Assembly: GCA_025937665.1 (NCBI GenBank)
Contig: JAICQW010000002.1
Coordinates: 1-34,040, forward strand
Source of the DNA: Nitrososphaeraceae archaeon
GTDB taxonomy: Archaea > Thermoproteota > Nitrososphaeria > Nitrososphaerales > Nitrososphaeraceae
Length of the DNA: 34,040 bases
Reading direction: 5' to 3'
Under the pieces are notes generated by a model. It was not told the DNA's origin and did not search any database. It saw only the letters and a program-made list of their open reading frames with translations. Below, in pieces: positions 8,079-25,691 of the stretch. The position numbers and the translations under genes were made by a program. Positions within the stretch are counted from its first letter, which is position 1. Each line of letters starts with the position of its first letter.

Positions 8079-8719
8079 CAGTATTCTAATAGTCTATATA
8101 ATATAGTTTATTTTTGTTCAATCTTACTTAACCAGGCCTGAATAATGTCCTTGCTCATTTGAATGAAACCCAACTACAGAAAATAGATAATTCGAGGAAC
8201 CCAATTTTTTAGTATCTTGTCAGTCTGATTGCTTACTGTAATGTCACTTCTTCTTCCTGCTGTCTTAGTGTTAACGAGTACTTATTCGTCTATTCTGAAT
8301 CCCAAATGTACTAGTTTAGGTTGAGAAGAAGGCTTATCCTCGATTTCAAAGGTTGATGACACCAGCTATTTCCTGCAATGGATACAGTTTCGTCCCAACC
8401 TGCTAAGATATTCTTAAAATCTGTCATTCTACCCTGAACTTATCAATTTTGGATCAAGATTATATGTGGACTGGCTTAAAGGACCAAAATTACGGGAATA
8501 TGGATCTTTTATATAATTTGTAGATCACATTACTATAACGATTTCAGCAAACAACTGGTGGAATCTCTTGAAAAACTCTTTCCATCAGTTGTATGGGAGA
8601 TTAATTCGTTGATAATAATATTGGAGAAGGACAAAATAACGTCAGAAGTGAGAAATAAGTTACATAAAAAAGGACTATCACTAATTGGAATGTCGGATAA
8701 AGAAATAATTTTTAGAAAG

Positions 8720-8857
8720 TTAATACGTTCCTTCAAGTAGTAAAACAATAACCCATCTTTCAAAACATGTAGTACAATACCATTCGACTAGTTTACCATC
8801 GCCTATCATATCTATTTGATTTATCAATGTCTTTTCTGCTTCCACCTTGCTTCCCAT
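8720..8857 (-). CDS. 45-aa protein with CxxC
   Basis: Read by hand: MGSKVEAEKTLINQIDMIGDGKLVEWYCTTCFERWVIVLLLEGTY*. Too short for the ORF track. Confidence 0.4.
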   Translation of the reverse strand: MGSKVEAEKTLINQIDMIGDGKLVEWYCTTCFERWVIVLLLEGTY

Positions 8858-24121: not shown

Positions 24122-24539
24122 AGTCTCATGCTAGACTACAAACTATAATTAATCTGAATTTAGTTACATCATTACTTAAGTTTGTTCTAACTAAATACTA
24201 CCTTACATGGTTGGGAGTAGTAGAGATTCGGAGCTAAAACATGAACCTATCATATATGAGTATTGGTCCTAAAAGAGGTACTTTTATTGACTGATTTTTT
24301 TACGATTTTTTGGAGTTTTATATCATCCTGCGATATCGTTTTCATTCTTTACATTATTCCTAAATATAATGTGACATAGACTAAGGTTAAGGTTAGAATA
24401 TGAAGGAGATTCGTCAGATTCTATTAAAAACTCTAAGGAATGTAAATTACTATCTAGAGATAGGTAATAATTTGTCTAGATATTAAGAATATCTAAATAG
24501 ATATATATAATTTGTCTGACAATAATAGATTAGATTAAA

Positions 24540-24592
24540 CAGCTGGGATCTTGGTCGTATTTGTTCATCCTGATAATGCCAGGTCCCAGTTG
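24540..24592 (+). other. Strong intergenic hairpin (possible structured RNA or DNA element)
   Basis: CAGCTGGGATCTTGG (24540-24554) pairs with CCAGGTCCCAGTTG (24579-24592): 14 pairs including wobbles, one bulge, 24-nt loop. Confidence 0.6.
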
Positions 24593-24794
24593 AATATTGT
24601 CTCTAACTTATGATTGATGCTTTGAATAGATTTTGTATCTCCGGAAAAATTAAAACAGAATATTCGATTTATGATCCAGTATGATATTTCAGAAGAACTC
24701 AAGCAGGCAGTGGCAGACTAAATCAGGAATGTATAGGTACTCATCAAGATGATTGGTTCCTTTTTGTTAATAAGCAAAATGTAAAACCAGAGAA

Positions 24795-25043
24795 ATGCAC
24801 ACCAGTTCTAAAAATGTATTAAGATACCAGTCTAATCACGAGAACCTGATTGGGGAAATTTTTCGAAAATCGGGCACTCAATATTTGGTTTCTATTTATA
24901 GGGATCCTTCACCTGAAGCTTTAGTATACATTGAGACGACATTCGAGACTTTTTATTCAGGATTGCAGAACAATTCGATAACCACCAATAATGCTAGTTC
25001 TATATATATGATAAAGGACACAAATAGGTATGTTAGTGAATAG
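24795..25043 (+). CDS. Hypothetical protein, first gene of a three-gene cassette
   Basis: 82 aa ORF; overlaps the next ORF by 14 nt. Confidence 0.65.
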   Translation: MHTSSKNVLRYQSNHENLIGEIFRKSGTQYLVSIYRDPSPEALVYIETTFETFYSGLQNNSITTNNASSIYMIKDTNRYVSE

Positions 25044-25257
25044 TGTTGTAACAAATGACCTTAATTCATTAGACATGCCTCAGGGATTGATAGAGTTGTT
25101 GATTGAAAACTCTCTGGATAGAGAACGTTTATTAAAAATGAGCATAGACGAATTAGCTTTTATTCTAAATATTGATATCGAAGCTGCAAAGATAATCATC
25201 AATTCAGTAGCAAATTATTCCAACTTCATGTTTCATGATATGAGAGAGCTTAGGTAA
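25030..25257 (+). CDS. Small protein with a helix-hairpin-helix-like segment
   Basis: GLIELLIENSLDRERLLKMSIDELAFILNIDIEAAKIIINSV resembles the HhH pattern (LL.ms..EL..ilgi....A..Ii..). Confidence 0.65.
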   Translation: MLVNSVVTNDLNSLDMPQGLIELLIENSLDRERLLKMSIDELAFILNIDIEAAKIIINSVANYSNFMFHDMRELR

Positions 25258-25280
25258 CAGTAGAAAGAAGAATTGGGATC

Positions 25281-25691
25281 ATGGACACAAATGATGAAAT
25301 AGCTGCTGAGAAAATTATAAGGATTTTAAAGGCTAATGGGTACTTTATTAGCAAAAGTGATGTTCTTTGGATTCTAAATAGCATGACAGAGGAGTTAGAA
25401 CGTCAAGTGAACAAATCTAATAGTATTCTAGAAAGGAAGGTTATTTGTGAAGTTATAACAACTGCGAAAGAAATAAAGGTAATAACTGAACTTCCAGACG
25501 TTTCTGAGGAGGATATCAATATTAGTATATATGACAACGATTTATTTATCAATGCTGACGGTCAAAAAAGGAGTTATTACGAAGTGGTACATTTACCAAA
25601 TGGAGTATCTGACAAAGGATTAAAATCGACCTTTCTTAATGGCATTCTAGAGATAACTCTTCAGAAAACAAATAAAACAAGTCGAATTTAA
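25281..25691 (+). CDS. Hsp20/alpha-crystallin-like protein with an extra N-terminal helical region
   Basis: CEVITTAKEIKVITELPDVSEEDINISIYDNDLFINADGQKRSYYEVVHLPNGVSDKGLKSTFLNGILEITLQK follows the ACD pattern including the final GILEI strand. Confidence 0.8.
   Translation: MDTNDEIAAEKIIRILKANGYFISKSDVLWILNSMTEELERQVNKSNSILERKVICEVITTAKEIKVITELPDVSEEDINISIYDNDLFINADGQKRSYYEVVHLPNGVSDKGLKSTFLNGILEITLQKTNKTSRI

Follow-up and report, generated by a model that had tools for sequence, protein, structure and literature searches.

A putative genus-wide family of small structured RNAs and a probable, separate two-gene unit with a small heat-shock protein gene in a Nitrososphaeraceae archaeon

Functional families of small RNAs (sRNAs) are, to our knowledge, few in archaea. 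Sibling sRNAs are homologous copies that carry a common exposed binding segment. In Methanosarcina mazei, sRNA162 and sRNA171 are intergenic archaeal sRNAs with their own promoter and conserved stem-loops (PMC3510493). The 191-nt primary transcript of sRNA162 contains three stem-loops; its homologs are confined to close relatives, a second genomic copy exists (two copies in total), and its known targets are translation-initiation regions of mRNAs (PMC3510493). Our literature searches returned nothing on the hairpin RNA presented here, and no sRNA family described in Nitrososphaeria turned up in them; the family is apparently undescribed so far.

The window, i.e. the whole 34,040-nt stretch of DNA analysed, is contig C2 of genome G000 (2.04 Mb, 331 contigs, 92% complete). 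It was compared with the close relative G055, with a genus sample of 12 genomes (g1; G000 and G046-G056) and with a family sample of 70 genomes. A sequence-only reading had described three tightly packed genes behind a palindrome and a large hairpin as one cassette. In our judgement the region probably holds two independent things: one of many copies of a small structured RNA gene found across the genus, and a separate ORF2-ORF3 unit. The hairpin is the main find; the RNA family of which it is a member is dispersed and has no relation to ORF2 and ORF3. The features of the region are as follows:

24295-24372, minus strand: remnant of a PRC-barrel-like gene (tblastn E 0.001, internal stop)
24478-24494, no strand: palindrome AGATATT-AAG-AATATCT, 17 nt, at chance level
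24502-24512, plus strand: TATA box of the putative small RNA gene, TATATATAATT, within the conserved block AGAATATCTAAAnAGATATATATAATTTG
24533-24606, plus strand: small structured RNA with leader, hairpin and U-rich tail; predicted transcript about 65-75 nt
24540-24592, plus strand: hairpin CAGCTGGGATCTTGG...GCCAGGTCCCAGTTG with the family loop UUGUUCAUC, recognized by folding energy and loop conservation
24647-25043, plus strand: relic of an ABM-family gene in three frames (tblastn with the intact homolog at L073 917-1270)
25000-25009, plus strand: TATA box serving ORF2 and ORF3, with the ORF2 ATG about 26 nt further on
25030-25257, plus strand: ORF2, a 75-aa helical, plausibly HhH-like protein of a multi-copy family
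25281-25691, plus strand: ORF3, a 136-aa small heat-shock protein

The hairpin at 24540-24592 proved real. It has about 15 outer pairs and folds with an energy of -24 kcal/mol (z = -4.3, with 1 of 200 shuffles equally good), it is conserved, and its stem shows covariation. With the upstream region as a DNA query, 24450-24636 turned out to be conserved in G056, G051 and G047, unlike the ORF1 region in these genomes. The block AGAATATCTAAAnAGATATATATAATTTG with its TATA box is conserved in G055 and in G056 (two copies) and is similar in G051, G047 and G046. The palindrome at 24478-24494 is present as described earlier, and was rejected as an operator or other functional element: the window contains five perfect palindromes of this 7-3-7 form, compared with 3.0 after dinucleotide shuffling, and of its two arms only the right one, which falls within the promoter block, is conserved in relatives. 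Around the TATA boxes of the family as a whole, inverted repeats scored only slightly higher than in the control (4.0 versus 3.2), a difference not significant by itself. A small PRC-barrel-like gene, intact at L069 562-876 and L070 4368-4610, lies divergent to the RNA in G056 and G051, of which the window retains the remnant only. In G056 the RNA and the start of ORF2 occur at both of two contig ends (C11, L037; C101, L069), which are 96% alike over 255 flank bases and reflect either a duplication or an assembly break.

A covariance model built from seven hairpin copies (R1) uncovered additional ones in almost every genus genome. A second model (R2) was built from 27 sequences, one of which is the reverse-strand reading of a copy. 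R1 and R2 match the window RNA (24533-24606) at 1.4e-18 and 1.2e-15 respectively. At E<=0.1, R2 matches were present in all 12 genus genomes, ranging from 1 to 39 per genome (G000, 13; G046, 17; G047, 39; G048, 6; G049, 11; G050, 21; G051, 11; G052, 25; G053, 1; G054, 4; G055, 12; G056, 7). Some low-scoring matches that lack the loop, and a few hairpins read on the opposite strand, are counted here, so that the upper figures (39 in G047) are slightly inflated. Several of the G047 copies (L128-L133), all on one strand and at intervals of 0.3-1.6 kb, are part of larger duplicated segments, and the 'independent' copy number there is weakened accordingly. A search of a sample of the order at E<=0.01 with stricter filters found model matches in 9 of 9 genus genomes and in none of 192 order genomes outside the genus. 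An exact stem-loop pattern occurred in 8 of the 12 genomes of genus g1; the other family genomes and the reversed-pattern control gave none, and the exact 19-nt loop pattern was absent from viral contigs. Phage-integrase-family genes lie near two RNA copies (L079 2680-3606; L147 2882-3718). Elsewhere in the window, the RNA model weakly matched positions 8495-8611 (plus strand), which have a TATA box and a AACTGGTGGAA...TTCCATCAGTT stem and lack the UUGUUCA loop; this match overlaps a short ORF (8558-8740) and may be due to chance or represent a loop-less relative.

Copies share a common layout, comprising a TATA box, a leader (CUAAACAC), a stem of ~11 pairs, an apical loop, the second stem arm and a run rich in T. 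The TATA box typically precedes the stem by about 30-40 nt; when 72 copies were scanned from 50 to 18 nt ahead of the stem, 90% had a TATA motif there, compared with 11% for a control window. The leader sits at the distance from this box expected of a transcription start; an exact match to this consensus is missing in 24 of the 72 copies, the window RNA reading GATTAAA. A T-run follows the stem in 44% of copies (11% in the control), and transcript ends were placed by TATA spacing and this tail. The apical loop, UUGUUCA(UCA), is near-invariant, with TTGTTCA in 68 of 72 copies while the stems vary. Mean folding z over the 72 copies is -4.5, and 68 of them fall below -2.

Covariation was assessed in two alignments fitted to the hairpin structure. 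The smaller (A5, 27 sequences) shows two-sided changes in 10 of 11 stem pairs (68 cells), with 96.9% of cells paired, a level that none of 500 shuffles reached; the larger (A9, 82 distinct sequences) holds 180 cells with two-sided changes. When the partner was slid by 1-3 columns, as a control for structure-fitted alignments, pairing was at most 47%.

The RNA copies are syntenic between species, with both flanks in common, and in ten pairs of positional orthologs the leader plus hairpin is 90% and the promoter 86% identical, compared with 59% and 66% for the flanks. These data bear on whether the copies might be MITE- or REP-like, i.e. repeats or non-autonomous mobile elements in which the palindrome serves as a DNA recognition site, as dispersed multi-copy palindromes numbering 1 to 39, the local segmental duplications in G047 and integrase genes close to two copies could suggest. 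We regard this as unlikely given the synteny, the promoter and the signs of selection: the copies are ancient, diverged and in syntenic positions across species, their promoter has stayed at a fixed distance and their unpaired loop is conserved, and conservation of promoter and hairpin lies far above that of the flanks. Same-strand hairpins at gene-length spacing (0.5-1.1 kb) in G047 contigs C271, C254, C121 and C81 recall integron attC-like recombination sites; however, the R-box RYYYAAC occurs in 2.8% and the L-box GTTRRRY in 8.3% of copies, the conserved part is the loop and not the base of the stem, and a promoter is present, making such an identity extremely improbable.

Known RNA classes did not account for the family either. 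A scan of the window against Rfam 15 gave three chance-level matches, all far below the gathering score and none at the hairpin, and the same scan of seven loci with diverse copies gave no match at E<=0.5. H/ACA guide RNAs and C/D box RNAs were rejected, as an ACA near the stem end occurs in just 14% of copies and the C box RUGAUGA in 0%. Seventy-one of the 72 copies lie outside ORFs of >=90 aa, a count that leaves room for overlap with shorter ORFs. For 40 of 67 copies the next gene downstream runs on the opposite strand, and codirectional downstream genes start at least 110 nt from the hairpin; the RNA is therefore not an mRNA leader, and a riboswitch was likewise rejected on the orientation of neighbouring genes.

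Members of the family are most likely stand-alone sRNAs that would act through their exposed loop, on RNA or on protein; both transcription of the hairpin RNA and its trans-acting role are predicted from promoter, stem and loop. Each copy would form its own transcription unit behind an archaeal TATA promoter, with the transcript starting near the CUAAACAC leader and terminating at the U-rich tract. The long covarying stem would present the apical loop UUGUUCA(UCA), and since the promoters of the sibling copies have diverged, the same loop could be produced in response to different signals. We tentatively put forward the possibility that up to several dozen sibling RNAs, each with its own promoter, address one shared RNA or protein partner, so that signals would converge on a single post-transcriptional switch. 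A simple complementarity search showed that the loop complement is not enriched outside the RNA copies themselves, leaving no visible mRNA target; single 15-mer matches to it exist, one of them at a start codon (L172). With no enriched target found, a protein partner becomes a serious, if doubtful, rival: the RNA would be a decoy or scaffold whose invariant loop binds a protein (e.g. an RNA-binding regulator or a nuclease) and not an mRNA, with copy number setting the dosage. An invariant loop on a stem whose sequence varies freely, together with the lack of an enriched complementary site, is consistent with such a role, although from sequence alone it looks the same as base-pairing and the partner is putative. 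If the proposed sRNA switch is correct, it would constitute a genus-specific RNA regulatory system in soil archaea. With its strong covariation, own promoters, genus-wide presence and 1-39 matches per genome, the family lends itself readily to RNA-seq, deletion and pull-down work and offers a clean case of how a multi-copy RNA family arises and spreads inside one genus.

The coordinates of the three frames downstream of the hairpin (24795-25043, 25030-25257 and 25281-25691, all plus strand) were exact in the sequence-only reading, as were the 14-nt overlap and the 24-nt gap between them. ORF1 (24795-25043) is, as judged from its frames, a pseudogene remnant, the last open piece, from the 3' part, of a decayed ABM-family gene whose relic extends over 24647-24733 (frame 3, with an internal stop), 24718-24762 (frame 2) and 24777-24923 (frame 1). 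Intact homologs of ORF1 of ~118 aa exist in G054 and G046, and Pfam ABM (PF03992) matches L073 917-1270 at 1.1e-4 and L078 4286-4639 at 3.4e-5; these intact family members have an open frame, whereas the copy in the window is frameshifted and interrupted. In the closest relative, G055, ORF1 is broken by a frameshift and a stop, and G056 retains just its last ~20 codons, which contain the ORF2 promoter. ORF1 was accordingly rejected as a gene, given its frameshifts and internal stop, its broken state in G055 and its near absence from G056, and the 'three genes' become two. Another ABM-family fragment lies downstream of the hairpin copy in G051.

The second frame encodes a real protein. ORF2 evolves under purifying selection (dN/dS 0.04-0.12), so coding conservation, expected for both of the first two frames, held for ORF2 and failed for the decayed ORF1. 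Homologs of ORF2 were found in 43 of the 70 family genomes (E<=1); they form a family of ~75-aa proteins that is multi-copy in the genus, with most members standing alone. Its predicted structure is all-helical (pLDDT 69), and its sequence has no Pfam match. The best Foldseek matches were the N-terminal domain of RadA/RAD51 and the C-terminal half of UvrC, along with the FANCM-FAAP24 HhH, at E-values of only about 0.1-1 and with some SAM-domain matches among them. The likeness to the Rad51/RadA N-terminal and UvrC C-terminal HhH domains reaches a TM-score of about 0.6 over about 55 residues, for a model of moderate confidence and with no detected sequence relation. The helix-hairpin-helix likeness proposed earlier thus stands as to an all-helical, HhH-like fold and is plausible for this model, while E-values above 0.1, SAM-domain matches and the lack of a Pfam match keep it from being an assignment.

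ORF3 contains the alpha-crystallin domain (Pfam HSP20, 3.4e-8; NCBIfam Hsp20) and the helical N-terminus that had been read from its sequence; the predicted structure places two helices (residues 3-18 and 25-47) in this 45-residue N-terminal region. Over the alpha-crystallin domain ORF3 is 41% identical to Sulfolobus solfataricus Hsp20.1 (4rzk) in a structural alignment, and its profile matches the Hsp20.1 sequence at 5.7e-22; it differs from that protein in its short two-helix N-terminal region, which is found only in genus g1. Full-length homologs, present in 7 of the 12 genus genomes, occur within the family only in this genus, and ORF3 is under purifying selection (dN/dS 0.10-0.20). A paralog in the same genome (G000:C103:15025-15408; L002 1480-1887, L042) is 50% identical and is preceded by a small PRC-barrel-like protein of the same family as the one next to the hairpin RNA in G056 and G051. 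The homolog in G049 (C173 1871-2242; L009, L038) has an in-frame stop in its N-terminal region and is a pseudogene, the product of a sequencing error, or a gene with a later start.

ORF2 and ORF3 probably form a real two-gene unit with its own promoter. The TATA box at 25000-25009 is conserved in G055 and in both G056 copies, and its position 26 nt before the ATG predicts a leaderless ORF2-ORF3 mRNA. A palindromic TATA promoter, AATCTTATATAAGATAGAT, is common to the ORF2 paralogs (L082-L088) and sits a short distance ahead of the ATG, which suggests leaderless, co-regulated genes. The 14-nt overlap had been taken to indicate translational coupling, a view not borne out, since ORF1 holds the ORF2 TATA box, and relatives with a broken ORF1, or with none, have kept this box.

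Same-strand orientation, tight packing and the ORF2-ORF3 adjacency preserved in G055 and G056 could still speak for a functional operon whose three products, one of them unknown, one an HhH protein and one a dedicated chaperone, act in one complex. Against this, G055 has the ORF1 remnant in broken form and G056 lacks it, ORF2 is served by a promoter of its own and has paralogs that stand alone, and the ORF3 homologs of G047, G049, G052 and G048, as well as the paralog in G000, have no adjoining ORF2 where the neighbourhood is visible. The two genes are adjacent in 3 of 12 genus genomes (G000, G055 and G056; 3 of the 7 with an ORF3 homolog), and the three frames are not conserved as neighbours. 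We therefore consider such an operon highly improbable; the dedicated DNA- or protein-binding complex that had been proposed is weakly supported by adjacency in three of seven genomes, and a functional link between the ORF2 and ORF3 proteins is putative.

Among known systems, the likeness of the hairpin RNA family to sRNA162 and sRNA171 of M. mazei lies in an intergenic position, an own promoter, a stem-loop, a lineage-restricted distribution and homologous copies, all of which are here read from sequence alone. The hairpin RNA differs from sRNA162 in being a single hairpin of ~55 nt present in up to about 40 copies, with no sequence relation. The bacterial sibling sRNAs NgncR_162 and NgncR_163 of Neisseria (PMC9973317) have far fewer copies and a sequence unrelated to the hairpin family. 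The M. mazei pair, different in architecture, is the best-studied archaeal comparison that we found.
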